DNA from: Actinoplanes sp. NBRC 103695
GTDB lineage: Bacteria > Actinomycetota > Actinomycetes > Mycobacteriales > Micromonosporaceae
Direction: 5' to 3'
DNA: 64,000 bases
Assembly: GCF_030269485.1 (NCBI RefSeq)
Contig: NZ_BSTL01000018.1
Coordinates: 124,001 to 188,000 of the forward strand
Shown here in pieces: positions 18,668 through 35,602 of the stretch. The notes under the pieces were generated by a model. That model did no database searches. It saw only the letters and a program-made list of their open reading frames with translations, and was not told the origin of the DNA. Within the stretch, counting starts at the first letter, position 1, and each line of letters begins with the position of its first letter. Position numbers and translations under genes: made by a program.

Positions 18668-19865
18668 GGACCTCGCCGATCTTGCCCAGCGCGAGATCGA
18701 TCTCCTCCTCGGTGATCACCAGCGGCGGCGCGAGGCGGATCGTCGAACCGTGGGTGTCCTTGACCAGGACGCCACGCTCGGCGAGCCGCTCGCACGCCTG
18801 ACGGCCGGTCATCAGGCCGGGGTCGATGTCGACGCCGGCCCACAGGCCCCGGCCCCGGACGGCCCGCACGCCGCCGATCTCCGCCAGGCCCTCGTGCAGG
18901 CGCTGCCCGAGCTTCGCCGACCTCTCCTGGAAGTCGCCGGTCCGCAGCAGCTTGACGACCTCGGCGCCGACCGCGCAGGCCAGCGGGTTGCCGCCGAACG
19001 TCGAACCGTGCTCGCCGGGCTTCAGCACCCCGAGCACGTCTCGGTTCGCGGCCACCGCCGACACCGGCACGATGCCGCCGCCGAGGGCCTTGCCCAGCAC
19101 GTACATGTCGGGGACGACGCCCTCGTGCTCGATCGCGAAGGTGCGGCCGGTGCGGCCCAGGCCGGACTGGATCTCGTCGGCGATCATCAGCACGTTCCGG
19201 TCGGTGCAGGCGGCGCGGATGCCGGCCAGGTAGCCCGCCGGCGGCACCAGCACACCGGCCTCGCCCTGGATCGGCTCCAGCAGCACGGCCACGGTGTGCT
19301 CGTCGATCGCGGCGGTCAGCGCGTCCAGGTCGCCGTACGGCACGATCGTGAACCCCGGCGTGTACGGCCCGAAGTCGTCGCGCGCGTCCGGGTCGGTGGA
19401 GAAGCTGACGATCGTCGTCGTACGCCCGTGGAAGTTGTTCTCCGCCACGATGATGTTCGCCCGGCCGTCCGGCACGCCCTTGACCTGGTAGCCCCACTTG
19501 CGGGCGACCTTGATCGCGGTCTCCACCGCCTCGGCGCCGGTGTTCATCGGCAGCACCAGGTCCTTGTCGCACAGCTCGGCCAGCCCGCGGCAGAACGTGG
19601 CGAACTGGTCGTGCACGAATGCGCGGCTGGTCAGCGTGACCCGGTCGAGCTGGGCGTGCGCTGCGGCGATCAGCGCCGGGTGGCGGTGGCCGAAGTTCAG
19701 CGCCGAGTAGCCGGCCAGGAAGTCGAGGTAGCGGCGGCCGTCCACGTCGGTGACCCAGGCGCCCTCGGCGTCGGCGATCACCACCGGCAGCGGGTGGTAG
19801 TTGTGGGCGGTCCAGCGCTCGGCGTCGGCCAGAGCTTCCGGCGTACGCGAGTCCACGGTCGTCAT
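18648..19865 (-). CDS. rocD: Ornithine-oxo-acid aminotransferase
   Basis: 405 residues, class-III PLP aminotransferase. Motifs: [42 protein letters not shown], the Schiff-base Lys in [10 protein letters not shown] (~257) and [11 protein letters not shown]. The sequence follows ornithine aminotransferase, which converts ornithine and 2-oxoglutarate to glutamate semialdehyde and glutamate, rather than acetylornithine or GABA transaminases. It is monocistronic here, and no rocA or arginase lies nearby. Confidence 0.85.
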
Positions 19866-19974
19866 GTCCGCAACGGTATGCGCGAAACCCCTGCTGGCGC
19901 CGCAGATCTCCCTTGCGGCGGGCGTTCGATCGTTGCGCGTTCGGATGATCTCGCAGCGCTTCGTTGCAACAGGT

Positions 19975-20009
19975 CAGGGGACGACACCCGCATCGGGTGT
20001 CGTCCCCTG
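19975..20009. terminator. Perfect 16-bp inverted repeat between rocD and a membrane gene
   Basis: Arms CAGGGGACGACACCCG and CGGGTGTCGTCCCCTG are separated by CAT. No U-run follows on either side, so this resembles the hairpin-only terminators of actinobacteria. It sits 84 bases after the stop of the minus-strand gene at 20093-20665. Confidence 0.7.
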
Positions 20010-20092
20010 ATCAGACTTCCAGCGCATCGCCGGAACATTTCGGGGCGGGGCCGGCCAAAACGCCGTCCCGGTTCCGTAATGAGCGAATACCC

Positions 20093-20665
20093 CTAGAAAC
20101 GGTTCACAAACTGTGCGTCAAGCCACTCTCGTGCGGTGTTTACCGGCTGCACGTCGGTGCCCAGCCAGGCCAGCGAACCGGTCAGCGCGAGCACGCCGAT
20201 CACGATCGCGGCCAGCGACAGCACCATGCCGATCAGCGCGTCCGACTTGCCGGCGACGTGCCGGCGGCCGGTGGCGTGGATGCCGCTCAGCGACAGGATC
20301 AGGGCGAGCACGGCGACGCCGAGGCCGTAGCCCAGCAGCGGGCCGGACAGCACCAGCATGGCGCCGACCACGGCGAGGATCAGGCCCAGGGTGGCGAGCA
20401 GGCTCGCCCGGGGCTTGGGGCCGGTCGGCGTGACCCGCTCCTGCTTGACCCGGTGCTGCTCGACCGTGTCCGCGGTTTCCCGCGGCGCGATCGTCGCGCG
20501 ACCCTCGTCCCCGTCCTTCTTGTCGTGGACGGCAGGCCCACCAGGAGTACGGAACGTGCGGGTCGTGGTCTCGTCCGGCTTGGCCACCGAGCTGGTGCCG
20601 GCCACCGGGCGTTCTTCGGTCGGTGTATCGGTAGCGGCCTGGCGGGAGAACGTAGGGAGTCTCAC
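20093..20665 (-). CDS. Small membrane protein of unknown function
   Basis: 190 residues from a GTG with GGAGGTG immediately upstream. The first ~85 residues are polar, Thr/Pro-rich and probably cytoplasmic. Then come three hydrophobic segments (SLLATLGLILAVVGAMLVLSG; YGLGVAVLALILSLSGI; IGMVLSLAAIVIGVLALTGS), as in DUF4190-like proteins, and a short amphipathic C-terminus. I do not recognise a function. Confidence 0.75.
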   Translation of the reverse strand: MRLPTFSRQAATDTPTEERPVAGTSSVAKPDETTTRTFRTPGGPAVHDKKDGDEGRATIAPRETADTVEQHRVKQERVTPTGPKPRASLLATLGLILAVVGAMLVLSGPLLGYGLGVAVLALILSLSGIHATGRRHVAGKSDALIGMVLSLAAIVIGVLALTGSLAWLGTDVQPVNTAREWLDAQFVNRF

Positions 20666-20716
20666 GTCAGCACCTCCTCAGCAAGTCGGGGGATGCCATA
20701 GCCCTACCCCGAACCG

Positions 20717-20751
20717 CCGACAACAAAACGGGCACCGGTCACCGGTGCCCG
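20717..20751 (-). terminator. Intrinsic terminator of clpP
   Basis: Read on the minus strand, CGGGCACCGG and CCGGTGCCCG pair around a 3-base loop and are followed directly by TTTTGTTGT. It lies 18 bases after the clpP stop. Confidence 0.85.
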
Positions 20752-20769
20752 TCCTGTGTGCTCGTCGTG

Positions 20770-21384
20770 TTACGCCGGCATCGGCGCCGGCGACGACCCG
20801 ACATCGCTCGCGCTGCGGATCACGTGGTCGATGAGCCCGTAGTCCTTGGCCTCCTGGGCCGTGAACCAGCGGTCCCGGTCGGAGTCGCGCTCGATCTCCT
20901 CCGGCGTGTGGCCGGAGTGGAAGGCGATCCGCTCGTTCATCACGGTCTTGATGTGCAGCATGCTCTCCGCCTGGATGGCGATGTCGGCCGCGGTGCCGCC
21001 GATGCCGCCGGACAGCTGGTGCATCATCACCCGGGCGTGCGGCAACGCGTACCGCTTGCCCGGCGTGCCCGCGCACAACAGGAACTGCCCCATCGAGGCG
21101 GCCATGCCCATCGCGATCGTGGCGACGTCGTTCTTGACATACTGCATGGTGTCGTAGACGGCCATGCCCGCGCTGATCGACCCGCCCGGCGAGTTGATGT
21201 ACAGCGCGATGTCCTTCTCGCTGTCGGCCGACGCCAGCAGCAGAAGCTGGGCACAGATGCGGTTGGTGACCTCGTCGTTCACCTCGGAGCCGAGGAAGAT
21301 GATCCGCTCCCGGAGCAGCCGCTCGAAGACCTGGTCATCGAAGGAGGCGCCACCCGCCCGCATGGAAATCTCGTCAACGTTCAT
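20770..21384 (-). CDS. clpP: ATP-dependent Clp protease proteolytic subunit
   Basis: 204 residues. The catalytic triad is visible: Ser in [13 protein letters not shown] (~100), His in [11 protein letters not shown] (~125) and Asp in DSDRDRWF (~175). [20 protein letters not shown] is the oligomer handle region. ClpP forms the tetradecameric chamber fed by ClpX or ClpC. Actinobacteria usually carry several clpP genes, and this copy has no second clpP or clpX beside it. A good terminator follows. Confidence 0.92.
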
Positions 21385-21486
21385 GGACCAACCCTCTCAC
21401 CTGTTCGGATCCTCTTCACCTTGCCCCGGTGCGGCCCGCCCGGCCCAGCGATTCCCCTCTGGGCGAAGTCCGCTCTCGGCATAACT

Positions 21487-21603
21487 CACCCCAACCAAGA
21501 TCAAGACCTTCCCGGGTACGCGCGACGAAACGGCGGCGTGGCACACCCGCCGGGCCGTCGACGGTCACCCTCCTTGCCCCACCGCCGGGTTGTCCCGCGT
21601 GGG
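21487..21603 (+). repeat. Dispersed intergenic repeat, copy D
   Basis: Plus orientation, in the gap between divergent clpP and the small gene at 21615. It contains CCAACCAAGATCAAGACC, GGGTACGCGCGAC, GTGGCACACCCGCCGGGC, GGTCACCCTCCTTGCCC and CGGGTTGTCCCGCGTGG. It ends 11 bases before the next gene start. It is the most complete copy. Confidence 0.78.
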
Positions 21604-21614
21604 AAAACCCGGCG

Positions 21615-21884
21615 GTGACCGAGGACGGACATTTCGTCGTCATCTCCGGCCGGCGCTGGCGGGCGACCGACCCCGCCATCCCCGAGGAGGTCGCCGCCGA
21701 GCTGCGCAAGACCCTGACGGCCGCCCGGCGGGATGTCGGACGCGCCCTGCCGGCCGGCGAGGATCCGAAGCCGGCCCGGGCCCGGGTCCAGGCGGCGAAG
21801 GTGGCCCTCGGCGAGCGCGGCACCCCCTGGTGGGAGCAGTCCCTGGAGGAACGTCGCCGGCGGTGGGAAGAGGGTCTGGGCTGA
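21615..21884 (+). CDS. Small conserved actinobacterial protein
   Basis: 89 residues from the GTG at 21615: VTEDGHFVVISGRRWRATDP, then an Ala/Arg-rich helix and a Trp-containing charged tail (TPWWEQSLEERRRRW). It resembles small proteins found across actinomycetes that often carry misleading transporter names, but no transmembrane segment is present. Length and charge suggest a soluble, possibly nucleic-acid- or protein-binding factor. Function unknown. It precedes a serine hydrolase gene by 44 bases. Confidence 0.7.
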   Translation: MTEDGHFVVISGRRWRATDPAIPEEVAAELRKTLTAARRDVGRALPAGEDPKPARARVQAAKVALGERGTPWWEQSLEERRRRWEEGLG

Positions 21885-21928
21885 CGGCGGGTTACCGGCG
21901 CGGGCCGAATGATGTCAGGATCGTCGCC

Positions 21929-23185
21929 GTGTCTCTGGACCGACGTGCTCTGCTGGGTGCCGGGTTGACCGCGGGCGCCGCCGCCCTCACCGGCTGCGGC
22001 CCGTCGGACAAGCCCGCCTCGCAGTGGGTCGCCCCCGTGAGCACCCCACCGTCGCCGGCCGCGAAGCCCACGACTCGGGCGAAGCCCGGGTACGCCGGTG
22101 ACGTAGAGGCTGTGCTGCACAAATACCTGCGGCCGACCAAGGACAACCCCCGGCATCCGGGCTATGCGGGCGCCGTCGCTCTGGTGGCCGAGGACGGCGC
22201 GACGCGGCTCGAGGTCGCCGCCGGGGACGCGGTGCGCTACGGCGCCGGCCCGGTCGAGCTGCCGGAGAACAAGCGCGTGCCCATGCGTACCGACGCCATC
22301 TTTGATCTTGCCTCGATCACCAAGGTCTTCACCGCGCTGCTGGTGCTGAAGCTGGCCGACCGTGGGGACGTCGACCTGGACGCGCCGGTGCGCAAATATC
22401 TGCCCGACTTCGGCCGGAACGCGGTGACCGTGGCGATGCTGCTCGCGCACACCGGCGGGCTTCCGGTCGGCGCGGGCCGGGCGAGCTGGGCCGAGGTGCC
22501 GCGGATCCCGCTGGTCAAGGGCGCGGTGCCGGGGAGCACGTTCCGGTATTCCAGCGTCGGGCTGATGGTGCTGGGCAAGCTGGTCGAGAAACGCACCGGC
22601 ATGACCTTGGACAAGGCGTTGCGGGACCAGATCACCGGGCCGCTCGGGCTGCGGGACACCGGGTTCCGGCCGCTGGGCTGGGCGGCGACGAAACGGCTGG
22701 TCGCCACCGACGCCCGCACGTCGCGCGGACTCCTGCGCGGCGAGGTGCACGACGATGTCTGCGCGCGGCTCGGCGGGGTGGCCGGTCACGCCGGGGTCTT
22801 CGGTACGGCGGCCGACGTCGCCGTGATCGGTCAGCTGCTCCTGGGGCGGGGCGAGTACCGGAAGAAGCGGATCCTCTCGGCGGAGATCGTGGACCGCGCC
22901 CTGACCAATGTGAACCGTGGCAAACCCGCGATCGACCCGGAGCGTCCGGACCGGTCGGCCGACCACGGGCTCGGTGTGGAGATCAACCAGCCGTGGTTCA
23001 TGGGGCGGCTGGCGTCACCGGCGAGTTTCGGGCACACCGGCTTCACCGGGACGTCGCTGCTGATCGCGCCGGAGCGGCGGCTGGTCGTGGTGCTGCTGAC
23101 CAACCGCGCGCATCCGAACTGGAGCTGGTCGGACCCGGACGTGCACCGGGTCGCTGTCGCCAACGCCATCGCGAAAGGTGCCTAA
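21929..23185 (+). CDS. Secreted serine hydrolase, beta-lactamase / class C PBP fold
   Basis: 418 residues from the GTG at 21929. The N-terminus LLGAGLTAGAAALTGC is a lipoprotein or Tat-like signal ending in a lipobox. The catalytic SITK (SxxK) is at ~135, YSSVG at ~210 replaces the usual YxN, and HTGFTG near residue 372 takes the KTG position. Members include D-aminopeptidases, esterases and transpeptidase-like enzymes; a beta-lactamase activity should not be assumed. The last four bases overlap the convergent chitinase stop. Confidence 0.82.
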   Translation: MSLDRRALLGAGLTAGAAALTGCGPSDKPASQWVAPVSTPPSPAAKPTTRAKPGYAGDVEAVLHKYLRPTKDNPRHPGYAGAVALVAEDGATRLEVAAGDAVRYGAGPVELPENKRVPMRTDAIFDLASITKVFTALLVLKLADRGDVDLDAPVRKYLPDFGRNAVTVAMLLAHTGGLPVGAGRASWAEVPRIPLVKGAVPGSTFRYSSVGLMVLGKLVEKRTGMTLDKALRDQITGPLGLRDTGFRPLGWAATKRLVATDARTSRGLLRGEVHDDVCARLGGVAGHAGVFGTAADVAVIGQLLLGRGEYRKKRILSAEIVDRALTNVNRGKPAIDPERPDRSADHGLGVEINQPWFMGRLASPASFGHTGFTGTSLLIAPERRLVVVLLTNRAHPNWSWSDPDVHRVAVANAIAKGA

Positions 23186-24555
23186 GGCAGGGCGTTCAGG
23201 AACGGCTCGTGGTTGATGCGGAACTCCCAGCTGTAGTACTTGTCCCAGTTGATCGACCAGGTCATCAGGCCGCGGAAGTTGGGGTTCGTGCCGCTGCGTG
23301 GCGTGTACCCGCCGCAGTTCTGGGTCCGTACCAGGCAGTTGACCGCCTGCTGGACGGCGGCCGGCCCGACGTACCCGTTGCCCGCGCTGACCGACGACGG
23401 CGCGCCGAACGCGATCTGGTCCTCCCGCAACGCCGGGAACTGGTTGGCCGTGTTGCCCGCCACCGGGAAGCCGGCCAGCAGCATGTCGGTCATCGCGATG
23501 TGGAAGTCCGCGCCGCCCATCGTGTGGTACTGGTTGTCCAGCCCCATGATCGGGCCGGAGTTGTAGTCCTGGACGTGCAACACCGTGAGGTCGTTGCGCA
23601 GCGCGTAGATGACCGGCAGGTAGGAACCCGCCCGCGGGTCCTGGCCACCCCACGGCCCGGAGCCGTAGTACTGGTAGCCGAGCTGCACGAAGAACGTCTC
23701 CGGCGCCATGGTCAGCACGAACCCGGCGCCGTAGCGGGCCTTGAGCGTGCGCAGCGCCGAGATCAGGTTGACGATCACCGGGCTGGTCGGGTTCTTGAAG
23801 TCGGTGTCGCCGGTGTTGAGCGAGAGCGAGTGGCCCTCGAAGTCGACGTCGACGCCGTCCAGGCCGTACCTGTCGATGATCCCGCCGACCGTCTGGACGA
23901 ACTTGTCCCGTGCCGCCGTGCTGCTGAGCTGCACCTGGCCGTTCTGCCCACCGATGGAGAGCAGCGCCTTCTTGCCGGCCTGACGCTTGGCGCGGATGGC
24001 CGCGATGAACTGCGCCTCGGTCTCCACGCCGGGGCACTCGGCCGCCGGGCAGAGGGTGAACCGGATGTCACCCGAGGTCGGGCTGGTCGGCTCGCCGAAG
24101 GCCAGGTTGATGATGTCCCAGTCGGCGGGCACGTCAGACATCCGCAGGTAGCCGGAGCCGTTGGCGAAGCTGGCGTGCAGGTAGCCGATCAGCGCGTGCT
24201 TCGGCAGTCCGCCGACGGGCGGCGGGTCGGTCGGTGGATCCGTGGGCGGATCGGTCGGTGGGTCGGTGGGCGGATCCGTGGGCGGGTCGGTGGGCGGGGT
24301 GCTGCCGCCGCAGACGCCGTCGTCGGCCCAGACGTCCCACTGGCCGCTGTGCGAGGACGGGCTCTCGTTCTGGGTCCACCACTTGGCCCGGTAGTTGTGG
24401 CCGGACTGGGAGGCGGTGTTCCCGCCGACATAGACGGTGGAGGCGCTCCACGGTGCCGCACAGGCGGCCGCGGCGCCGGCGCTGGACGCCAGGTAGAAAA
24501 CCGACCCGGTCGCCGCCAGCACGGCGGCCGAGGCCATCACGAGGGATCGACGCAT
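23182..24555 (-). CDS. Secreted GH18 chitinase with N-terminal CBM5/12; probably leaderless mRNA
   Basis: 457 residues: signal peptide (MRRSLVMASAAV..., to ~29), CBM5/12 (~31-85), a TDPP repeat linker, and GH18 with LLSIGGQNG and the catalytic LDGVDVDFEG. The closest visible relative is the chitinase at 6381-7622. No Shine-Dalgarno sequence precedes the ATG; instead the promoter -10 lies 7 bases upstream, so transcription should start at or beside the ATG. The stop overlaps the convergent serine hydrolase stop. Confidence 0.9.
   Translation of the reverse strand: MRRSLVMASAAVLAATGSVFYLASSAGAAAACAAPWSASTVYVGGNTASQSGHNYRAKWWTQNESPSSHSGQWDVWADDGVCGGSTPPTDPPTDPPTDPPTDPPTDPPTDPPPVGGLPKHALIGYLHASFANGSGYLRMSDVPADWDIINLAFGEPTSPTSGDIRFTLCPAAECPGVETEAQFIAAIRAKRQAGKKALLSIGGQNGQVQLSSTAARDKFVQTVGGIIDRYGLDGVDVDFEGHSLSLNTGDTDFKNPTSPVIVNLISALRTLKARYGAGFVLTMAPETFFVQLGYQYYGSGPWGGQDPRAGSYLPVIYALRNDLTVLHVQDYNSGPIMGLDNQYHTMGGADFHIAMTDMLLAGFPVAGNTANQFPALREDQIAFGAPSSVSAGNGYVGPAAVQQAVNCLVRTQNCGGYTPRSGTNPNFRGLMTWSINWDKYYSWEFRINHEPFLNALP
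24228..24300. repeat. Tandem repeat encoding the TDPP linker of the third chitinase
   Basis: About six 12-bp units (GGATCGGTGGGC type) encode Thr-Asp-Pro-Pro repeats between the carbohydrate-binding and catalytic domains. The same sequence family occurs at 7301-7370. Confidence 0.75.
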
Positions 24556-24558
24556 GGC

Positions 24559-24590
24559 TAATTATTAGGACTGTTAACCATAAGTGTCCA
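24559..24590 (-). promoter_or_regulatory. Chitinase promoter/operator element, copy 2
   Basis: On the minus strand TGGACA (24585-24590), a 17-base spacer and TAATAA (24562-24567) form a promoter whose start point falls on the chitinase ATG. The plus-strand block TAATTATTAGGACTGTTAAC (24559-24578) is identical to the one at 7658-7677. The -35 and part of the element lie inside the last codons and stop of the upstream ABC gene. Confidence 0.68.
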
Positions 24591-25251
24591 GCCCTGTGAA
24601 CGGCGAAAATCCTTTCCATACGAGCTTGCCGTGATCGAGCACCACGATCCGGTCCGCCATGTCCACGGCCTCGTCCCGGTCGTGGGTCACATAGATCGTG
24701 GTGATGCCGAGGCGTTTGGTCAGCGCCACGATGTCCCCGCGCAGCTCGGCCCAGATCCGCGGGTCGACGTTGGACAGCGGCTCGTCCAGCAGCAGGATCG
24801 CGGGGCGGCGGACGATCGCCCGGGCCATCGCCACGCGCTGGCGCTGCCCGCGGGACAGATGCGCGGGGAGCCGGCCGAGCAGATCGGCGATGCCCAGGTG
24901 CCGGGCGGCCTCGGCAACCCGCTCACCGACGTCCGAGTGGGCGCCGCGCAACGGGAAGCCGATGTTCTGCGCCACGGTCAGGTGCTGGTAGACCGAGTAG
25001 CTCTGGAAGACCACCGCGATCACCGCCTCGCGGTCCGGCAGGTCGGCCAGGGGCACACCGCCGACCTCGATCGAACCCGTGGTCGGCGTCTCCAGCCCGC
25101 CGAGCAGGCGCAGCAGCGTGGTCTTGCCGCTGCCACCCTCGCCGAGCAGCACCAGGAACTCGCCGGAGGCGACCTCCAGCGTGACGTCGTCGAGGGCAAC
25201 GACACCCGGCTCGAAAACCTTGGTGAGTGCCTCGACACGAACAGCGACCAT
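24574..25251 (-). CDS. ABC transporter ATP-binding protein, short (no TOBE domain)
   Basis: 225 residues from the ATG at 25251; a longer frame to 25287 overlaps the previous gene. Walker A GEGGSGKT, Q-loop VFQSYSVYQ, signature LSRGQ, Walker B ILLLDEP and the switch His (YVTHDRDE) are intact, so it should hydrolyse ATP. The sequence is closest to sugar-importer (MalK/UgpC-like) ATPases, but these are normally ~350-400 residues with a C-terminal TOBE region that is missing here. No permease is adjacent. It is last in the M50/EF-hand operon, and its 3' end contains the chitinase promoter. Confidence 0.82.
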   Translation of the reverse strand: MVAVRVEALTKVFEPGVVALDDVTLEVASGEFLVLLGEGGSGKTTLLRLLGGLETPTTGSIEVGGVPLADLPDREAVIAVVFQSYSVYQHLTVAQNIGFPLRGAHSDVGERVAEAARHLGIADLLGRLPAHLSRGQRQRVAMARAIVRRPAILLLDEPLSNVDPRIWAELRGDIVALTKRLGITTIYVTHDRDEAVDMADRIVVLDHGKLVWKGFSPFTGLDTYG

Positions 25252-25271
25252 CACCACATGGTGCGGCTTGA

Positions 25272-26015
25272 TCAGTCGTTGTGCCACACGGTGCGGTCGA
25301 GCCAGCCGTTGTTGTTGTCGTCGTACATCGTCTTCTCGAACACGCCGTCCTTGTCCCGGTCGATGGTGGCCTCGTCCACCTTCCAGTCGCGGTCGAAGTC
25401 ACGCCCGATGAAGTCGACCTTCCCGTCGGCGTTCACGTCGACCATGATGTCGACGCCGCCGTCCTCCCGGGCCGAGTACGTGGCCTTGTCCCAGTCGCCG
25501 TCGCCGTCCGCGTCCACCCTGTTGCGGTAGTTGCCGACACCCTCGAAATGCTTGGCCGGCGCCTCGTGCTCGACCGGGGGCGACACCTCCTTGACGACCT
25601 CGGCGTGCGCGGTCGAGACGGCATCACCCATCCGGGCAACCGCGGGCACCTCGTCCAGGTCACGGCCCGGCGCGTCGCCCAGCGCCGAATGCGCGCCGAT
25701 CATGCTGCCCCCACCACCCGGGGCCGGCGGGACACCCTCCGCGACAGTGTGCGCGGCGACCCCGGCCGCCGACCCGAACTCGGACCAGTCCCCGAGCGTC
25801 GAGAAGAGGCCGAACGTGCTGGATTTCGTGGTCCGCCCCTCGACGACCGAGGCCGCGCCGCCGGTGTCACCGGGGGACATCTGACTGCGCAGCAGCTCGA
25901 TCTCGTCCTCGCCCAGCTGGTAACCGGCCAGGGCCCGGTCCGGGTCCTCGGCCAGCGCGGCGGCGAACGGCGGGTCGCTGAGCAGCCGTTCGAGCACATC
26001 GTCGAAGTCGCTCAT
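25272..26015 (-). CDS. EF-hand-repeat protein with leader-like N-terminus
   Basis: 247 residues from the ATG at 26015 (an alternative GTG is at 26036). The first ~45 residues (FDDVLERLLSDPPFAAALAEDP...GYQLGEDEIELL) resemble the Os1348/Nif11-like leader region of some peptide precursors. A Gly/Ala/Pro-rich middle follows. The last ~80 residues hold four Asp-rich loops (DADGDGDWDKA, DVNADGKVDF, DRDKDGVFEK, DDNNNGWLDR) typical of calcium-binding repeats. No signal peptide is visible. Genes for an M50-like protease and an ABC ATPase flank it, so processing or export is possible but unproven. Confidence 0.72.
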   Translation of the reverse strand: MSDFDDVLERLLSDPPFAAALAEDPDRALAGYQLGEDEIELLRSQMSPGDTGGAASVVEGRTTKSSTFGLFSTLGDWSEFGSAAGVAAHTVAEGVPPAPGGGGSMIGAHSALGDAPGRDLDEVPAVARMGDAVSTAHAEVVKEVSPPVEHEAPAKHFEGVGNYRNRVDADGDGDWDKATYSAREDGGVDIMVDVNADGKVDFIGRDFDRDWKVDEATIDRDKDGVFEKTMYDDNNNGWLDRTVWHND

Positions 26016-26068
26016 CGGCTCACCGTAAACGAGCACGTCCAGCCGCTGTATCGGGCATTAGGGCGGTC

Positions 26069-26284
26069 CTAGTCCATCTCCGGCATGGCCACCGGCTGGG
26101 GACGCGGCCGGCACGTGCCGCACTGGACGGCATCCTCGACCACCAGCGCCTCGGCACGTTGGCGGGTCTCCGACCGGCTCACCTGGAGCAGGTACGGCCC
26201 GAAACGGGCGTGGTCCTCACAGACCCCCCGGCCACAGAACCGGCACGTCGCCCGCGCCGCCTTGGCGCAGAACCAGCAGAGCAC
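26069..26284 (-). CDS. Small Cys-rich zinc-finger-like protein
   Basis: 71 residues. MLCWFCAKAARATCRFCGRGVCEDHARFG gives two CxxC pairs, a further Cys and a His, like a B-box or LIM-type zinc site, and CGTC follows near residue 56. It lies 58 bases after the M50 gene and 53 bases before the EF-hand gene, so it is in the same transcript. Probably a small zinc protein that binds a partner; function unknown. Confidence 0.7.
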   Translation of the reverse strand: MLCWFCAKAARATCRFCGRGVCEDHARFGPYLLQVSRSETRQRAEALVVEDAVQCGTCRPRPQPVAMPEMD

Positions 26285-26342
26285 GTCAGCAGTCCTCCAT
26301 CGAGAAGATCATCATCCGGGGATCAGATTAGCCGGACCCGGC

Positions 26343-29300
26343 CTAGCCGATGATCGGTCCGTCGTCGGTCTCCGAGGGCGACGGCGACGAACTGCTCGGC
26401 GGGTTCGACGACGGCTGCTCCGACGGCGGGGTCGAAGGCTGCGACGGCGGGTTCGACGACGGGCGCGTCGGCGGGACCGGATCCGGGTCGTCCGGTTCGT
26501 TCGCCGGCGGCGGGTTGTCGTCGTCCTCGTCGTCGTCCTGGTTGTTGCCGCCCGGCTGCGGGATCGGGTCCGGTTCGGGGACCTCCTCGACCGGAGGCGT
26601 CGAGGACTCCACCACCGACGGCGTGACCGGCGGCTCGGAGGGCAGGTCGGCGGACGGCTCCTCGCTCGGCCCGGCCGCCGGCGGCTCGACGGCGATGCCG
26701 TCGCCGCAGGACAACGCGCTGTTCGTCGGCGTCGACCGGCTGCCGTCCACGTCCACCTTTCCGGTGGACACGGTGACCGTGGCCGGGTCGATCGAGAACC
26801 AGGCCTTGCCCGCGTTCGTGACCTCGCCCAGCGGCCGGGTGACCACCAGGTTGATCGGCCGGTACGCGGTGCTGGTGCTGGTCGTGTCGGCGAGCAGCCG
26901 GCCGCCCTGCAGGTTCAACGTGCCGCTCGGCTGCCGGTCCCGGCCCAGCCCGGGGGCGAGCGCGCCGATCTCGGTGGTCGACCCGCCGCACAGCAGCGCC
27001 GCCGATCCGCCGGTGAACGTGATCAGGCCGGTCGCCTTGTCGGAGACCTCGATCTCGGCGCCCGCGGCGACGAACCGCCGCTCCCCCGCGGCCAGCACGG
27101 TCAGCTTGCCGTCGACCTTCAGGGTGATCCGGCCGCGCTCCGAGGAGACCAGCGCGCGGCTCGCCGGCATCTCGGCCCAGGCCGGGCCGGGCGCGATGTT
27201 CGCCGTCGTCAGCAGCAGCGCGAGCAGCAGAACCAACAGGACGAGCCACCACATCCGGCGCAGGAAACGCTTGTCGACCTCGGGGTCCTCGGTGCCGTCC
27301 GGCGGGCCGGGCGGCACCATCAGCGGCGGGTAGTCCTCCGGGTTCTTGCCGAACGCGGGCGCGCCGTGCCCCTCGACGACCGGAGCGCCGGCCAGCGCGC
27401 CACCACCCACCAGGGGCGGCAGGCTCGAGGCGTCAGGCATGACCCACAACCTCACCGGGGTACGCGTCTGAGCGACCATCCCGGGACTGCCGTCACCCAC
27501 CGGGCCGACCAGGGTGCCACGGCGCAACTCGGTGCCGTCGGCCATGGCGATCACGCCGGACTCCACGACGACCGCCTGCGTGGGGCTGACCAGCATCACC
27601 GGCGCGCCCGGCTCCAGGTCGACCGGGTGCGCGGCGGCGATCAGGGCCAGCTGCTCGTCACCCTCGAGGGCGGCGAGCGCCGGAGTGTCCGCGAACAGCG
27701 CCTCGGCCTCGGCCCGGTCCACCGGCGGCGGTCCGGGCAGCGGGCCGATCACGGCCGCCACGGTCGCGGTCGGAACACTCAGAAGCGTGGTGCCGGCGGT
27801 GTGCCAGTCGAGCGTGGTGGCCCGGCCGGTGAGCGCGTTGCCCAGGCCGACGACGCCGCCGGGGCCGACGTGGTGCCGGATCGTGCCGCCCGGGTCGCCG
27901 GGACGCCGGCCCTGCAGGGCGCCGTCCACGACCACGTAGACCGCGGTCTGCGGGCCGCCGGCCATCACCATCTGCTTGCCCTGGGACGGCCGTACCCAGC
28001 GGGCCCGCGCGGCCAGCCCGTGCAGCGCGTGCTCGGGCAGGCCGCCCAGGTCGGAGTTGCGCAACGCCTCGACCCGGCGGGGCAGGTCGGTCTCGCGCTG
28101 CTTCTCCGCGGCACGGGCCCGGGACTTGCGCCACGACCGGCTGAGCCGGCGCAGACCGAGGTGGATCAGCGGGGCGCAGAGGCCCAGCACGATCAGGACC
28201 AGCAGCAGCTGGGCGGCGGGCCCGCTGTGCCAGAGGCCGGTGGCCACCCCGCTGACCCGGTCCGACCACATCCGGTACGCCAGGTTCGCCGCCACCACCA
28301 GCCAGAGCAGGGCCAGCACGCCGTACAACGCGATGATCCGTCCCTCGCGGTCCAGCGAGGACCAGCGCGGCGGGCGGCCCCGCAACCGGCTGCCGACCCA
28401 GGACAACCCGCGAGCCCGCAGGTTGGGGATCTCCAGCCAGTCCATCAGCAGGTAGTAGCCGTCCAGCGCGATGAACGGGTTGAGGTTGAACAGCACGTTG
28501 ATGTACCAGGCGAAGGCCAGCTTGAACGCCAGCCCGGCGACCGCTGGCACGAACAGGCCGACCAGCTGCATGCCGCCGGCCAGCACCAGGCCGGTGAGCG
28601 GGCCGACCGCGGTCACCAGGATCCGGGCCTTGCGTCCGGCCATCCACACGTCGGTGGTGTCGACGAAGACCGACGGGATGCCGAAGTAGACCAGCAGACC
28701 GGCCGCGGGCACCTCCCGCCCGGCATGTTTGGTGGCCAGGGCGTGACCGAGCTCGTGACAGGCCAGCGCCACGACGTTGAGCAGCAGCAGGAGGGCCGCG
28801 CCGAGCAGGTACGACCCGTTGGTCAGGAAGAGCGCCTCGGCGCCGCTCGCCCAGGTCCAGCCGAAGACGCCCAGACCGGCGACGGCGATCACGGCGAGAA
28901 CGATCGCGGCGGGCCGGGTGAACAGGAAGCGGGCGCCGCCGCGGTAGAGCGCGGAGACGAAGCCGTCGATGTCGGTGACCAGCATGCGCCGGCCACGCGC
29001 GGCGTTCAGAAGGCCGCGGCCCACCCGCGCCGGCAGCGGCTTGCGGACGATCTCCTGCAGCGGGCGGAAGGCGTCGAGCGGCAGTTCCTCGAGCATCCGG
29101 TTGCCGGCCAGGTCGGCGACCACCCGGCGGACCTGATCGGGGGCGAGCCGGCCGGCGATCCGGGCGAACTCGGCGACCAGCCGGGCCACCGTGAGTGAGC
29201 CGTCCATGATCTGGGCGAGCTCCCACTCCTCCGGAGTGAGACGCAGATAGCAGGCGCGCGAGCCGTCGTCGGGAGACCGCACCATGACGTACGCGGGACC

Positions 29301-29480
29301 GCGCACGCTGGCCAGCTCGACCGCCTCGACACCCACCCGCAGCACCGGACGTGCCCGGGTCGGGTTGAGCCGGTCGACGATCGCCGCCCAGAGCCCAGGG
29401 TCGGCCGGACCGATCGGCTCGCCCGGCGGCCGCCCCGCCAACGCCTCCCAGACGTTCATCCGGGTCTCGACGTACGTCAC
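26343..29480 (-). CDS. Large membrane protein: PqqD-like, M50 metalloprotease-like, cNMP-binding and FecR-like parts
   Basis: 1045 residues from the GTG at 29480, chosen because GAGGGG lies seven bases upstream; ATG at 29459 is possible. A PqqD-like winged helix is at ~75-130. A multi-pass membrane block holds CHELGHALATKH (zinc HExxH, ~242) and FNLNPFIALDGYYLLMDWLEIPNLR with the third-ligand Asp, as in putative peptide zinc metalloproteases. Two cNMP-binding-like regions (~495-590 and ~615-690), a further TM helix, a FecR-like beta domain and a Pro/Ser/Asp-rich tail follow. It heads a four-gene operon. Substrate and activity are unknown; the fusion is unusual. Confidence 0.78.
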   Translation of the reverse strand: MTYVETRMNVWEALAGRPPGEPIGPADPGLWAAIVDRLNPTRARPVLRVGVEAVELASVRGPAYVMVRSPDDGSRACYLRLTPEEWELAQIMDGSLTVARLVAEFARIAGRLAPDQVRRVVADLAGNRMLEELPLDAFRPLQEIVRKPLPARVGRGLLNAARGRRMLVTDIDGFVSALYRGGARFLFTRPAAIVLAVIAVAGLGVFGWTWASGAEALFLTNGSYLLGAALLLLLNVVALACHELGHALATKHAGREVPAAGLLVYFGIPSVFVDTTDVWMAGRKARILVTAVGPLTGLVLAGGMQLVGLFVPAVAGLAFKLAFAWYINVLFNLNPFIALDGYYLLMDWLEIPNLRARGLSWVGSRLRGRPPRWSSLDREGRIIALYGVLALLWLVVAANLAYRMWSDRVSGVATGLWHSGPAAQLLLVLIVLGLCAPLIHLGLRRLSRSWRKSRARAAEKQRETDLPRRVEALRNSDLGGLPEHALHGLAARARWVRPSQGKQMVMAGGPQTAVYVVVDGALQGRRPGDPGGTIRHHVGPGGVVGLGNALTGRATTLDWHTAGTTLLSVPTATVAAVIGPLPGPPPVDRAEAEALFADTPALAALEGDEQLALIAAAHPVDLEPGAPVMLVSPTQAVVVESGVIAMADGTELRRGTLVGPVGDGSPGMVAQTRTPVRLWVMPDASSLPPLVGGGALAGAPVVEGHGAPAFGKNPEDYPPLMVPPGPPDGTEDPEVDKRFLRRMWWLVLLVLLLALLLTTANIAPGPAWAEMPASRALVSSERGRITLKVDGKLTVLAAGERRFVAAGAEIEVSDKATGLITFTGGSAALLCGGSTTEIGALAPGLGRDRQPSGTLNLQGGRLLADTTSTSTAYRPINLVVTRPLGEVTNAGKAWFSIDPATVTVSTGKVDVDGSRSTPTNSALSCGDGIAVEPPAAGPSEEPSADLPSEPPVTPSVVESSTPPVEEVPEPDPIPQPGGNNQDDDEDDDNPPPANEPDDPDPVPPTRPSSNPPSQPSTPPSEQPSSNPPSSSSPSPSETDDGPIIG

Positions 29481-29600
29481 TCCGCTGCCCCTCGCCTTGC
29501 GCCCCTTCGGCGCGCCCACGCCGCAGGCGAGGGTAAGCGCTCGGAACCTGGCAAAGCGAGCCCCTAGCAGAGAAAGGCAAGCGATACGCCGACAAAGGGC

Positions 29601-29669
29601 CCATAAAAGAAACCAAAAGGGAGCGGTGGGTGACCCCGGTCAACCCCCTTGACCGAGATCACCCACCGC
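29601..29669 (-). terminator. Intrinsic terminator of the HtrA gene
   Basis: Arms GCGGTGGGTGA and TCACCCACCGC (11 bp) enclose a second 7-bp stem (CGGTCAA/TTGACCG). On the minus strand they are followed by TCCCTTTTGGTTTCTTTT. It lies 47 bases after the HtrA stop. Confidence 0.88.
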
Positions 29670-29715
29670 ATGGGAGGTGACGCCGTCCGATGGCCCGGGC
29701 GGCGCCGCGTCTTGA

Positions 29716-31434
29716 TCAGCCGGCCTCCGCCAAGGTGGCGGTGACCGTCTTCTTCGCACCGTCGCGGGAGAAGTCGATCGTCACCTTGTCGCCGACCGCG
29801 GCGCCCTGGATCACGCCGACCAGGTCGTCGGAGTCGTTGACCGCCTTGCCGTCGACCGCGGTGATGACGTCGCCCTGCGCGATGCCCGCCTTGGCCGCGG
29901 CGCTGCCCTCGGTGACCGCACGCACCAGGGCCCCGCCGTTCTCGCCCTCGGTGACACTGACGCCCAGCGCCGGGTGGCTGACCTTCTTGCCCGCGATCAG
30001 CGCGTCGACGACCTGCTTGACCTTGTTGGACGGGATCGCGAAGCCCAGGCCGATGTTGCCCTGGCTGCCGCCCGAGGTGTAGATCGCCGAGTTGATGCCG
30101 ATCACCTGGCCGTTGGTGTTGACCAGCGCGCCGCCCGAGTTGCCCGGGTTGATCGGGGCGTCGGTCTGCAGCAGGCCGGACATCGAGGTGGCGCCGGACT
30201 GCTGTTGCTGCGGCGGCTGCTCCTGCTGCTGGCCGCCGAACGGGTTCGGCTGCTGCGGGTCCTGCTGCTGCGGATCCTGGGGGCTGGGCTGCTCGCTCTC
30301 CGACCGGATGGTGCGGTCCTTGGCGCTGATGATGCCGGCGGTGACCGAACCCTCCAGGCCGAGCGGGCTGCCCAGCGCGAGAACGGTGTCGCCGACCTGC
30401 ATCTGGGCGCTGTCGCCGAGGGTGGCCGGCTTGAGGCCGGAAACCCCGGTCGCGCGGATCACCGCGAGGTCGGTGCGCGGGTCGGTGCCGACGATGGTGG
30501 CCGTCGCCTTCTTGCCGTCGGCGAAGATCACGTTGACCGTCTTGCCCCGCGCGGTCGACACCACGTGGTTGTTGGTGACGATGTCGCCGTTGCTGTTCAG
30601 TACGACGCCGGAGCCCTCACCGGTGCCGGTGGTGATCGAGACGACGCTGTCCTGCACGGCCGAGGCGATCTGCGCGAGCGACGAACGGTCGACCACCCGG
30701 GTCACCGAGGAGTTGCCGGTCTGCACGGTCGAGTTGCCGTCGTCGTCCATGGCCAGCACGGTCGCGGCGCCGATGCCGCCGCCGGCCAGGGCGATCAGGA
30801 TGGCCGCGAAGCCCGCCACGAAGATCCGCCGGCCACGGCCGGAGGAGGCCGGCCGGGTGTCGGTCGCGACCGGCTGCACCCAGGTCGGCTGCGTGCCGCC
30901 CGTGGGCTGGTAACCGCCCGGGTAGGGCGGCTGCGGCCCGTGACCACCCAGACCGGGGTGCGGCTGACCGGCAAGCGGCTGACCGGGCTGACCGGACAGC
31001 GGCTGACCGGACAGCGGCTGACCGGGGAGCGGCTGACCGGGCTGGCCCGGATGCGGCTGGCCCGGATGCGGAGCTCCCGCGCCGGCCCACGGCGACGGGC
31101 CGGGGTAGCCCGGACCCGGCTGCGGCTGACCCGGGAACTGCTGGCCGTAGGGGTGGTGCTGCGGTGACTGCCAGGGTGACGCCGAAGGCTGCGGAGGCCC
31201 GGAGGCCGGCGGCTGCGCGGCCGGTCCCTCCACGACCGGCTGGGCCGCGGTCGGCGACTCCACGACCGGCTGCTCGGCGGTTGTCGGCTCGGACTCTCCC
31301 CGCTGCGGGCTCGCGCCGGGCACCGGAGTGCCGGCGACGGAAGCGTCCTCGGGTGAGGCGTCCGCTGGCCGGTGCGACGGCTCCGGAGTCGCCGGAGTCT
31401 CGTGCCGCTGCGGGTTGGTCTCGTGCTCGTTCAT
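29716..31434 (-). CDS. HtrA/DegP-like serine protease with PDZ domain (PepD-like)
   Basis: 572 residues from the ATG at 31434 (MNEHETN). A long Pro/Gln/Gly-rich cytoplasmic region contains GQPLSGQPL-type repeats. One TM helix (~220-242) precedes a trypsin-like domain with the catalytic His in NNHVVS, Asp in DPRTDLAVI and Ser in NPGNSGGALV, interrupted by a Gln/Pro insert (~390-420). A C-terminal PDZ domain ends the protein. It degrades or senses misfolded envelope proteins. Its place after a two-component system matches mycobacterial mprA-mprB-pepD. Confidence 0.9.
   Translation of the reverse strand: MNEHETNPQRHETPATPEPSHRPADASPEDASVAGTPVPGASPQRGESEPTTAEQPVVESPTAAQPVVEGPAAQPPASGPPQPSASPWQSPQHHPYGQQFPGQPQPGPGYPGPSPWAGAGAPHPGQPHPGQPGQPLPGQPLSGQPLSGQPGQPLAGQPHPGLGGHGPQPPYPGGYQPTGGTQPTWVQPVATDTRPASSGRGRRIFVAGFAAILIALAGGGIGAATVLAMDDDGNSTVQTGNSSVTRVVDRSSLAQIASAVQDSVVSITTGTGEGSGVVLNSNGDIVTNNHVVSTARGKTVNVIFADGKKATATIVGTDPRTDLAVIRATGVSGLKPATLGDSAQMQVGDTVLALGSPLGLEGSVTAGIISAKDRTIRSESEQPSPQDPQQQDPQQPNPFGGQQQEQPPQQQQSGATSMSGLLQTDAPINPGNSGGALVNTNGQVIGINSAIYTSGGSQGNIGLGFAIPSNKVKQVVDALIAGKKVSHPALGVSVTEGENGGALVRAVTEGSAAAKAGIAQGDVITAVDGKAVNDSDDLVGVIQGAAVGDKVTIDFSRDGAKKTVTATLAEAG
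30955..31075. repeat. Tandem ~15-bp repeat in the HtrA proline-rich region
   Basis: CGGCTGACCGGACAG-type units repeat about seven times, encoding GQPLSGQPL-like repeats. The unit changes between copies (15-bp and 9-bp forms), suggesting slippage. Confidence 0.7.
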
Positions 31435-31506
31435 GGGTCCAACCTTGCCCATCGGGTCTCCGACGAGACTGTGTTACGGCTGGATGTTTTCTGTGAATGG
31501 TGCTTG

Positions 31507-33132
31507 TCAGCTCGTGGGGTGATTTTCCCGGTCGAGCGCGGGCAAACTGACCCGGAAGGTGGCGCCCTTGCCGGGCTCGCTCCGCACGTCCACGGTGCCG
31601 TGGTGGGCCCGCACGATGGCCGCCACGATCGCCAGGCCCAGGCCGGTGCCGGTGGCCTCCCGGTCGGTGTGCCTGGTCCGCGCCTCGTCCGCCCGGAAGA
31701 ACCGCTCGAAGACGTGCTCCTGCTGTTCCGCGCCGAGCCCGGGGCCGGTGTCCGCCACCTCGATCACGGCACGGTTGCCCGACTCGGCGTACAGCCTGAG
31801 CGTCACCTGTGCGTCCGGCGGCGTGTGCACCAGCGCGTTGGTCATCAGGTTGCCGATGACCTGCCGCAGCCGGGCGTCGTCCGCGTACGCCACCAGCAGC
31901 TCCGGCTCGTCGCGCACCTCCAGCTCGATCCGGCGTTCCGGCGCGGTCGCCTGGGCGGCCTGCACCGCCTCCATCGCCAGCACGGGCAGCTCGGTCGGGG
32001 CCAGCGTGAGGGGTCGTTCCCGGTCCAGCCGGGCGAGCAGCAGCAGGTCCTCGACCAGCAGGCCCATCCGGGCGGCCTCGTCCTCGATCCGGCGCATCAG
32101 CCGGTTGACGTCCTCGCCCTGGGGCACCGCGCCCTGGCGGTAGAGCTCGGCGAACCCCCGGATCGTGGTCAGCGGGGTCCGCAGCTCGTGCGACGCGTCG
32201 GCGACGAACTGCCGCATCTTGCCCTCGGAGCGCAGCGCCCGCGACTCGGAGACCTGTGCGGCGTCGGCCGCGTCTCGGGCCGCCGACTCGGCCGCCCGGG
32301 CAGCCGTCTCGGACTGGGCGCGGGCGGTGAACGCCGCCTCGATCTGGGTGAGCATCGCGTTCAGTGCCCGGGCCAACCGGCCCAGCTCGGTCTGCGGTTC
32401 GGGCATGTCCGGTTCCGGGTCGGGCACGCGCCGGGTCAGGTCACCGGCCGCGATCGCCCCGGCGGTCTGCTCGATCTCCACCAGTGGGCGCAGGCTGGTC
32501 CGCACGACCGCCGCCCCCACGGCGGCCAGCGCGATCAGCACGCCGCAGCCGACCAGCAGGTCGATCCAGACCAGCCGGGTCATCGCGAAGTCGATCTCGC
32601 CCATGTTGCGGCCGACGTAGATGATGTCGCCCTGCGCGGTGGTGGCGATCCGCATCCGCCAGTGCTGCCGCTTGTTCGGCGAGTTCGCCGTGTACGGCTG
32701 TTCGTCGACCCGTTCCTGGATCGCGTCCACGCTGGTGAGGTAGGGCGGCATGTCGGACGCGCCGAGTTTCGCGTTGTTGCTGTAGGTCCGCCCGACGCCG
32801 GTGACCGACCGCACCATGAACACGTACTCGCTGGGGAAGGTCGGCTCGGGCTCGATCGAGTCGAGCTCGTTGAGCGAGATGTCGCGCAGGATCTCGGCGA
32901 TCTCGTTGGTGACCACCAGCAGTTCGTCGTCCATCCGGTCGATCAGGTACGACTTCAGCGCGAAGGTGCTGGACACGCTTATCAACGTCAGCGCGGTGAA
33001 GACGAGCGCCAGCACCGACGCGATCATCTTGATCCGGAGCGGGGTGCTGCGGAGCCGTGGCACGGGACGCACCACGTGCGGTGGAGGCGGTGACGACGGA
33101 GCCGGCAGCTCCGGCGAGACGGTGAGGGACAC
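31507..33132 (-). CDS. Sensor histidine kinase, MprB-like
   Basis: 541 residues. Two TM helices (~34-58 and ~175-197) flank an extracellular sensor. HAMP (~200-255) and a short coiled segment lead to HisKA with VADASHELRTPLTTIRG (phospho-acceptor His ~315). The HATPase domain follows, with N box GNLMTNALVH, DTGPGLG and GTGLGLAI. It starts 10 bases after the response regulator and is followed by htrA, the order of mprAB-pepD in mycobacteria, which sense envelope stress. The specific signal is not readable from sequence. Confidence 0.9.
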   Translation of the reverse strand: MSLTVSPELPAPSSPPPPHVVRPVPRLRSTPLRIKMIASVLALVFTALTLISVSSTFALKSYLIDRMDDELLVVTNEIAEILRDISLNELDSIEPEPTFPSEYVFMVRSVTGVGRTYSNNAKLGASDMPPYLTSVDAIQERVDEQPYTANSPNKRQHWRMRIATTAQGDIIYVGRNMGEIDFAMTRLVWIDLLVGCGVLIALAAVGAAVVRTSLRPLVEIEQTAGAIAAGDLTRRVPDPEPDMPEPQTELGRLARALNAMLTQIEAAFTARAQSETAARAAESAARDAADAAQVSESRALRSEGKMRQFVADASHELRTPLTTIRGFAELYRQGAVPQGEDVNRLMRRIEDEAARMGLLVEDLLLLARLDRERPLTLAPTELPVLAMEAVQAAQATAPERRIELEVRDEPELLVAYADDARLRQVIGNLMTNALVHTPPDAQVTLRLYAESGNRAVIEVADTGPGLGAEQQEHVFERFFRADEARTRHTDREATGTGLGLAIVAAIVRAHHGTVDVRSEPGKGATFRVSLPALDRENHPTS

Positions 33133-33142
33133 CGGAGAACCC

Positions 33143-33856
33143 TCAGGCGGCCGGCTTGCGGAGGACGTAACCCACCCCCCGGAGGGTGTGGATCAGCCGC
33201 GGTTGGACGTTGTCGACCTTGCGGCGCAGATAGGAGATGTACGACTCCACGATGTTGTCGTCGCCGCGGAAGTCGTATTTCCACACGTGGTCGAGGATCT
33301 GCGCCTTGGAGAGCACCCGGTTGGCGTTGAGCATCAGGTAGCGCAGGAGCTTGAACTCGGTGGGCGAGAGCTGCACCCGCTGGCCGGCCCGGTAGACCTC
33401 GTGGGTCTCCTCGTCGAGCTCGAGGTCGGCGAAGGTGAGCCGGGAGGGCGTCTCGTCACCGGCCGAGGTGCGGCGCAGCACGGCGCGGATGCGGGCCGTG
33501 AGCTCCTCCAGGCTGAACGGCTTGGTGACGTAGTCGTCGCCACCCAGGGTCAGGCCGCGGATCTTGTCGTCGGTGCCGTCGCGGGCGGTCAGGAACACCA
33601 CCGGGGTGCGCGCGCCGCCCTCGCGCATCAGCCGGATCACCTCGAAGCCGTCCAGGTCGGGCAGCATCACGTCGAGGACGACCAGGTCCGGGCTCGCGCT
33701 CTTGGCCGCGGTCACCGCGGCGCTGCCGCTGGTCGCCGTGCTGACGTCGAACCCGGCGAACCGCAGGCTGGCCGAGAGAAGCTCGAGGATGTTCGCGTCG
33801 TCCTCGACGACGAGCAGCTTCGCCTCGCTCTGCTTGGGCTGGGTCTGAATGGCCAT
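33143..33856 (-). CDS. OmpR family response regulator, MprA-like
   Basis: 237 residues from the ATG at 33856. Receiver domain with acidic pair VVEDDAN, phospho-acceptor Asp in VVLDVMLPD (~60) and Lys in YVTKPFS (~110). The C-terminal winged-helix domain includes LSPTEFKLLRYLMLNANRVLSKAQILDHVW. It is first in the three-gene stress operon with the kinase and HtrA. Confidence 0.92.
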   Translation of the reverse strand: MAIQTQPKQSEAKLLVVEDDANILELLSASLRFAGFDVSTATSGSAAVTAAKSASPDLVVLDVMLPDLDGFEVIRLMREGGARTPVVFLTARDGTDDKIRGLTLGGDDYVTKPFSLEELTARIRAVLRRTSAGDETPSRLTFADLELDEETHEVYRAGQRVQLSPTEFKLLRYLMLNANRVLSKAQILDHVWKYDFRGDDNIVESYISYLRRKVDNVQPRLIHTLRGVGYVLRKPAA

Positions 33857-33939
33857 GCCCCTCATCTTTCTCCCAGCGACTGCACTATGCCTGCATGGAC
33901 GCTGAAAGTTTTCTGTGAGACTCGTGATTCAGGGGATGT

Positions 33940-34710
33940 CTAAGCGGCCAGGCCCAGCGCGATGGGAGTGGTGCCGACCGAGGCCTGCGCGGCCCGCGCC
34001 AGCGTACGGCGGCTCGCGCCGGAATCCGGCCGCAGGGCGGGCGCGCCCACCACGGTGACCGTCAGCCGGCGCAGGGCGGCGACCCGGCTCACCGAGGTGA
34101 ACAGCGTCTCGTCGCCGATGAACGCCGCCGCAGTGGTGCCGTAGTCGATCGTGATCGGCACGACCGGCGCTCCGGCGTTCACCGCGGCCTGGAACATCGC
34201 CGGGCGGAAGCGGCCGCGTTCGGGGCCGCAGAAGGTCGTACCCTCCGGAAAGACCGCGACCGACCGACCGGCCCGCAGCGCGCCGGTGACCTCGGCCACC
34301 GTCCCGGGCAGGCGCTTGGGCCTGGTCCGATCCACGAAGATCGCGCCGATCACCGAGGCCAGGGTGCCGATGCCGGGCCAGCCCTCGACGTCGTGCTTGG
34401 CGACGATCCGCACCGGCCGGAGCGCGAGCAGCACCAGGATGTCCAGCCAGGAGACATGGTTGGAGACCAGCAGGCTGCCGGGTCGCGGCGCGGGGCCACG
34501 CCAATTCATGCGTACGCCCAGCGCGCCGAGCATGCCCCGGGCGACGACCTGGACCGCCGCCCCGCGCCGTATCGGCACCAGCACCAGGGCGGCGAGCAGC
34601 ACCCCGAGGAGCGCGGTCATCCGGAGCACCACCCGGATCCCGGCCACCCGGTCCTCGCCGCCCCTCCGGCAGGAGTCGCCGCAGGTGGAGATGGGCTGCC
34701 AGAACGTCAT
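33940..34710 (-). CDS. olsA: 1-acyl-sn-glycerol-3-phosphate acyltransferase, OlsA-like
   Basis: 256 residues from the ATG at 34710, overlapping the previous stop by four bases. A TM segment (~31-48) precedes NHVSWLDI (HX4D), VFPEGTT and the acceptor region PVVPITIDYG. Such proteins acylate lysophosphatidate. Directly after an OlsB-like GNAT, the likely role is OlsA, which adds the second acyl group to lyso-ornithine lipid. General phosphatidate synthesis is the alternative. Confidence 0.72.
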   Translation of the reverse strand: MTFWQPISTCGDSCRRGGEDRVAGIRVVLRMTALLGVLLAALVLVPIRRGAAVQVVARGMLGALGVRMNWRGPAPRPGSLLVSNHVSWLDILVLLALRPVRIVAKHDVEGWPGIGTLASVIGAIFVDRTRPKRLPGTVAEVTGALRAGRSVAVFPEGTTFCGPERGRFRPAMFQAAVNAGAPVVPITIDYGTTAAAFIGDETLFTSVSRVAALRRLTVTVVGAPALRPDSGASRRTLARAAQASVGTTPIALGLAA

Positions 34711-35468: not shown

Positions 35469-35602
35469 GCCCTCTGTGTAAGGGCCGCACTTTCCACCGG
35501 AATGACCGCGCCGGTGGTCTGATGTGTCCACAAAGTGAACAGGTGGCGGGTCGTCGCGGGGTACGGGGCACAGAGTGAGCTCTCACCCAGTAGATTGACG
35601 CG

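Follow-up and report, generated by a model that had tools for sequence, protein, structure and literature searches.

The systems closest to the locus described here, a group of four genes in a 64,000-nucleotide stretch of Actinoplanes sp. NBRC 103695 DNA (NZ_BSTL01000018.1, positions 124,001–188,000; the whole stretch is hereafter the window), are membrane proteases that act on the precursors of ribosomally synthesized and post-translationally modified peptides (RiPPs). MpaP has been proposed as an intramembrane leader peptidase of the daptides that depends on a RiPP recognition element (RRE) (PMC10036551). EpeP and other M50 enzymes are described as intramembrane peptidases for ribosomal precursors (PMC10885120), and TmcP, a site-2-clan protease, is reported to have been shown, with tests by mutation, to remove its precursor leader in the membrane (PMC13252029). 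In addition, binding to structured NHLP leaders can rely on their fold (PMC12455567). Compared with these systems, the window holds a real gene set containing a conserved module of three proteins: an M50 protease, a small zinc protein and a leader protein. We propose, with a probability that we put at roughly 0.6, that the M50 protein removes the leader of this protein-sized partner, acting as a leader-dependent intramembrane protease. By analogy with the described enzymes, leader-guided intramembrane proteolysis with a protein-sized cargo appears to be the best reading of the module, as a variant on the known leader proteases.

The four genes are co-directional on the minus strand, as are all features given below, at 29480–26343, 26284–26069, 26015–25272 and 25251–24574. 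They encode, respectively, an M50 (site-2) membrane protease with a PqqD-like part, assigned by profile matches and an AlphaFold model; a 71-residue zinc-site protein, assigned from the alignment of its Cys/His positions; a leader-bearing, low-complexity protein with DxDxDG loops, the proposed substrate, assigned by a match to NF038399 and a structure model; and a MalK/UgpC-like ATPase of the ATP-binding cassette (ABC) type, assigned by profile and by the lengths of its relatives. The intergenic gaps of 58, 53 and 20 nucleotides (the second becomes 32 if an upstream GTG start is used) agree with the first-pass annotation of this DNA, which had described four minus-strand genes spaced by 20–58 bases. 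Protease and leader protein are each single-copy in the 10.8-Mb genome.

The protease, of 1045 residues with a GTG start at 29480, carries both the HELGH zinc-ligand motif (28743–28757) and NLNPFIALDG, so that the HExxH and the distal Asp of an M50 core are present. Its AlphaFold model (mean pLDDT, predicted local distance difference test, 81.6) shows a six-helix membrane core at residues 189–464 (28089–28916). The Pfam M50 match is weak (E 0.03). The NCBIfam model daptide_HExxH (NF041824) matches residues 76–427 with E 2.4e-30, and the LiaK/YydH model (NF058609) matches with E 4e-13; both scores (106 bits against a cut-off of 300, and 49.6 against 225) lie below the curated cut-offs, the first placing the protein outside the daptide class, and the kinship to the two families extends to 40 of 40 members of the protease family. 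The site-2-protease core claimed in the first-pass annotation is therefore well founded on its motifs and on these two matches, both below cut-off. As in MpaP, an RRE-like domain appears to be fused to an intramembrane M50 peptidase; unlike MpaP, the window protease adds two further domain types and a seventh transmembrane helix, its cargo is protein-sized and no daptide modification genes occur in the module. Like the epipeptide proteases EpeP and YydH-LiaK, it would be an M50 intramembrane peptidase for a ribosomal precursor; it differs in that no radical SAM gene was identified at the window locus. TmcP of TMcin shares the site-2 clan but belongs to the DUF3267 family without a PqqD-like domain and acts on a substrate having its own transmembrane helix.

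The PqqD-like (RRE-like) part comprises residues 52–126 (29103–29327), modelled as three strands followed by three helices, a PqqD-like topology. An hhalign comparison with 17 PqqD domains gave E 5e-4 but a probability of 31% (decoy 0.07 and 0.8%), and at E ≤ 1 no member of the family, out of 40, gave a match to the PqqD profile PF05402; a more distant relative, L204, reaches 21.9 bits against a cut-off of 23.4. On the strength of the topology, the weak hhalign comparison and the near-cut-off score of L204, we regard the PqqD-like assignment, also made in the annotation, as supported, not certain. The annotation had allowed for structure prediction showing no PqqD or protease fold; this did not occur, as the model has a helical core in the membrane and, ahead of it, a domain of PqqD-like topology.

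Residues 465–690 (27411–28088) form two cyclic nucleotide-binding domain (cNBD) folds, the first of which superposes on PKA RIa with VIA Z 15.6 and a root-mean-square deviation (rmsd) of 1.7 over 115 aligned residues. When the whole protease was submitted to a fold search, cNBD matches took up the results, which therefore bear on these two domains only. Of 40 aligned proteases, 35, the window's among them, have lost the nucleotide-binding signatures, and the distant relatives L148–L151 and L079 keep them intact. The cyclic-nucleotide-binding part of the first-pass annotation therefore survives as a fold and not as a binding site, and nucleotide gating in the window organism, for which that annotation had suggested nucleotide dependence, was rejected since both domains lack the ligand signature. 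Its FecR part was not recovered at the profile level: no FecR profile matched any of the 40 members at E ≤ 1. In the model, a seventh transmembrane helix (residues 733–760) is followed by a beta-rich domain (residues 775–916; 26733–27158), probably extracytoplasmic by its topology, and then by a Pro-rich tail.

The proposed substrate begins with a helical leader of the Os1348/NHLP type (residues 1–46; 25878–26015), modelled with pLDDT >90 in nearly all blocks. NF038399 matches 34 of 34 aligned members of the leader-protein family at E ≤ 0.01, so that the peptide-leader-like N-terminus noticed at first pass is upheld, with the window member at 36.5 bits against a cut-off of 40. The family resembles the Os1348/NHLP/Frankia_peptide leaders (NF038399, PF14407) in its structured helical leader; unlike them, its window member stays below both cut-offs and its cargo is of about 200–500 residues with DxDxDG loops. 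Residues 50–156 are modelled as mostly disordered. Within them lies the segment VExRxxKSSxFGLF (residues 58–71; 25803–25844), which is assigned no structure by the model, whose V58, E59, R61 and G69 are shared by all 34 leader proteins, and which we propose as a recognition or cleavage zone. The short form of this motif occurs in all 34 leader proteins and the long form in 26, and the short form also turned up five times in the remaining predicted genes (405,428 residues); this control is partly circular, because the pattern was drawn from the family and loosened after the loci L203 and L204 had been seen. The C-terminal part (residues 163–247; 25275–25529) is modelled as a six-strand sheet with DxDxDG loops and no helices. 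The EF-hands of the first-pass annotation had to be abandoned, since no EF-hand Pfam model gave a match at E ≤ 1 (nearest was the calcium-binding Excalibur model, E 0.12) and the modelled strands do not form that fold. With a cargo of about 200 residues, the protein falls outside the strict RiPP class, which has a short core peptide. No signal peptide or transmembrane helix was seen by eye, and a PDB sequence search gave no match at E ≤ 0.1. The product would most probably bind calcium and belong to the envelope or the cytoplasm.

Co-occurrence was surveyed in 397 genomes of the order by three separate queries. The leader protein was found at full length in six genomes and as leader part only in two, the other matches among the 51 positive genomes lying outside the leader; the protease was found at ≥55% identity in eight (some match in 82), and the zinc protein in ten. 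The same eight genomes carry all three proteins. Of the two extra zinc proteins, that of genome G017 has a CRP-type regulator and an M50 protease with a cNBD as its neighbours, and that of G257 has no protease within the 10.7 kb examined. When named genomes were scanned with the zinc-protein alignment, 80 of the 82 relatives were kept, and the 66 near ones (L082–L147) were compared in neighbourhood; the relatives of the window's genome in this survey are Micromonosporaceae. The zinc protein's own presence in these loci is by construction, as the scan started from it. The protease lies directly upstream of it in 60 of 60 near loci with enough upstream sequence, which is not the scattering of homologues that the annotation had considered. 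Of the 66 loci, 34 have a leader protein, 12 the DxDxDG part only and 20 neither.

The fates of leader and active site are also paired. Active sites were aligned for 69 proteases (the window's, four from further loci outside the named set and 64 named), and L121 and L135 were added later to give 71; L106, where the alignment does not cover the site, and L117, L136, L144 and L147, where the protease is cut by a contig end, were left out of the counts, L144 being the twelfth DxDxDG-only locus. The site is intact in all 37 readable leader-bearing loci (35 at first, then L121 and L135). It is broken in 11 of 11 loci that keep only the DxDxDG part, mostly to RExxR with the motif Asn changed, and in 3 of 22 with neither part. 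What the 11 leaderless genes lack is the leader together with the VExRxxKSSxFGLF motif; they begin immediately behind these and retain the region that follows. Read plainly, they would encode what the protease would otherwise have made, i.e., the already cut product. A whole-genome search of 17 genomes found no leader region anywhere in 16; in the remaining one, that of L116, a complete leader protein is encoded at a distance from the operon, and the L133 genome was outside this search. In a tree of 68 rows the 27 leaderless rows form one clade (Shimodaira–Hasegawa-like approximate likelihood ratio test, SH-aLRT, 97), and the active site broke on three branches, all inside it. Together with the co-occurrence and the 60 of 60 adjacency, this paired fate supports the idea, already present at first pass, of a PqqD/M50 protease maturing its leader-bearing neighbour.

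On the proposed mechanism, the cytoplasmic PqqD-like domain would dock the helical leader, the VExRxxKSSxFGLF segment or both; the M50 core would cut near residues 71–77, and the low-complexity DxDxDG protein would be released as product. The cNBD pair, probably once nucleotide-gated, may now serve as a scaffold in the window organism, and the zinc protein may be a partner dedicated to this protease. The leaderless lineage amounts to an experiment of nature, from which a cut at about residues 71–77 is predicted; and as its product has no export signal, the protease is perhaps not needed for export. If true, leader-guided intramembrane cleavage extends beyond small modified peptides and constitutes a protein-maturation route in actinobacteria.

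The pairing of leader and protease recurs in two other lineages. At L203:8462–13851 (genome G600), a 97-residue precursor (NF038399 64 bits; PF14407 E 9e-9) accompanies an ATP-grasp-like gene (RimK E 0.006, below cut-off), an M50 protease with two cNBDs, and a zinc protein whose gene overlaps that of the protease by 4 nucleotides. Precursor, protease type and zinc protein are as in the window, whereas the short precursor, the ATP-grasp-like gene and an AhpC/TSA domain on the protease are not. At L204:8749–13948, a repeat-rich, glycine-rich leader protein is encoded 8 nucleotides upstream of an FHA-PqqD-M50 protease, with a Ser/Thr kinase-like gene downstream. The FHA-type protease occurs at ≥84% identity in 3 of 61 genomes of that genus (L204, L244 and L245), and in each of the three the gene immediately before it encodes the leader protein, in which RLSKSSLFFG follows the leader. 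A further genome (L081:1–4609) shows a repeat-rich gene cut by the contig end, an FHA-M50 protease and a kinase-like gene. More tentatively, and at slightly less than even odds in our estimate, RiPP logic (structured leader, recognition domain and leader protease) may have been adopted for whole-protein maturation, with leader-tagged low-complexity proteins served by exchangeable, signal-linked site-2 proteases (a cNBD type with zinc partner and an FHA type with Ser/Thr kinase), and with one lineage bypassing the cut through leader deletion and a conserved pseudoprotease.

Several observations weigh against leader removal as the function of the protease. Of the 246 genomes searched in the class, 16 gave an NF038399 match, of which one exceeded the cut-off, and a protease of the window family lay near the match in only 2 of the 11 loci examined for neighbours (out of 15 outside the window's genome). 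Similarity of leader residues 3–45 to the RiPP precursor SonA is weak in the structural comparison (VIA Z 4.2, rmsd 1.8, 43 aligned; Foldseek E 1.9). Since leader loss forms a single clade, the correlation between leader and active site is suggestive and not a statistical proof; a pair test gave p 1, with too few events to reach 0.05. In the Actinoplanes clade, 13 of 15 proteases keep the site although no leader protein was found, and there the protease must have another use. Finally, the proportion of nonsynonymous differences (pN) in the PqqD-like domain is 0.030, 0.036 and 0.033 in the leader, dead-site and no-leader groups (synonymous, pS, 0.27, 0.23 and 0.23); the domain is unrelaxed after leader loss, so that the leader would not be its only reason to exist.

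These intact proteases without a leader protein would fit regulated intramembrane proteolysis, in which the M50 protein would work in signalling as the site-2 protease, cutting an anti-sigma factor or other regulator once the neighbouring HtrA, as site-1 protease, has acted, and the leader protein would be a ligand or regulator and not the substrate. Of 58 loci having 9 kb of upstream sequence, 51 have an HtrA gene upstream in the same orientation, histidine kinase and response regulator genes are present in the window, and the protease would carry its beta-domain outside and its cNBDs inside. However, a terminator-like hairpin (29623–29669) parts htrA from the protease gene, so that the transcription unit probably begins at the latter; the Frankiales loci L145 and L146 showed no HtrA homologue; and the link to the leader and the kinship to RiPP leader proteases are left unexplained. 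We consider this explanation unlikely.

The broken active sites raise another alternative, a scaffold or sensor complex that can do without catalysis, where the leader would tether the DxDxDG protein to the membrane protein and nothing would be cut. The dead proteases have long been kept in 12 species rows, with M50 pN/pS of about 0.067/0.28. Across the leader, dead-site and no-leader groups, M50 pN is 0.049, 0.067 and 0.089 (pS 0.27, 0.28 and 0.29), a moderate change; the dead proteases thus stay constrained and are read as conserved pseudoproteases. Their rows retain the zinc protein, and 11 also retain the DxDxDG protein. Yet a pure scaffold would not require the full site seen in every readable leader-bearing locus, nor would it account for sites that break only in leaderless rows, and we rate it as quite improbable. 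The corresponding cNBD figure is distorted in the leader group by the pair L098/L122, whose reading frames are interrupted, and no conclusion is drawn from that comparison; in these two Phytohabitans genomes the protease frame is interrupted after an intact active site, possibly by sequencing error. A degenerate RiPP cluster, i.e., a former graspetide-like or other modified-peptide pathway drifting after loss of its modification enzyme, would be in keeping with L203, where a PF14407/NF038399 precursor, an ATP-grasp-like gene, protease and zinc protein are joined, but is very improbable given the conservation of the module over many genera with low pN/pS and the structured, protein-sized cargo.

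The ABC ATPase, which the annotation had counted as a working part, was rejected as a core component. It has 237 residues, as opposed to 440–468 in four relatives whose C-terminal part it lacks, and copies at ≥50% identity occur in 16 of 31 leader-bearing loci and in 0 of 32 others.

The annotation's remark that RiPP modification genes are absent holds at the window locus, where no modification enzyme was present among the genes scanned at 18648–36529, and fails elsewhere, given the ATP-grasp-like gene of L203 and a methyltransferase gene between leader gene and protease in two Frankiales metagenome-assembled genomes (MAGs), L067:6165–8125 and L068:6785–8727. In the latter two, the leader protein has no DxDxDG domain. 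No paper describing the operon was found in a literature search made largely without subscription journals. Proteins P0001–P0003 had no PHROGs match at E ≤ 0.01 and no match in a defence library; hits of the ATPase and of the L149 protease arose only from their generic ATPase and cNBD portions.

The zinc protein is the best conserved member of the module, with 76–77% identity between the window and the Frankiales MAGs; between the corresponding proteases, identity along the length is about 42%. Its eight Cys/His positions probably form the ligand sets C3/C6/C22/H25 and C14/C17/C55/C58; seven are invariant in 10 aligned proteins, and C6 is missing in one. A PDB sequence search gave nothing convincing, and hhalign detected no kinship with the protease. 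Models for its more distant neighbours were built from three of 10 distant loci, with Pfam PrsW confirmed for L155 and L160. The zinc protein adjoins a PrsW-type intramembrane protease in eight of these ten (L152, L154–L156 and L158–L161); no M50 or PrsW neighbour was detected in L153 and L157, two Anaerolineae MAGs, the former with a nucleotide-cyclase-like gene (Pfam) nearby. Occurring beside M50 and unrelated PrsW-type proteases, it would, if the partnership is true, be a candidate general partner of intramembrane metalloproteases. A small winged-helix protein stands beside it in all 10 distant loci.

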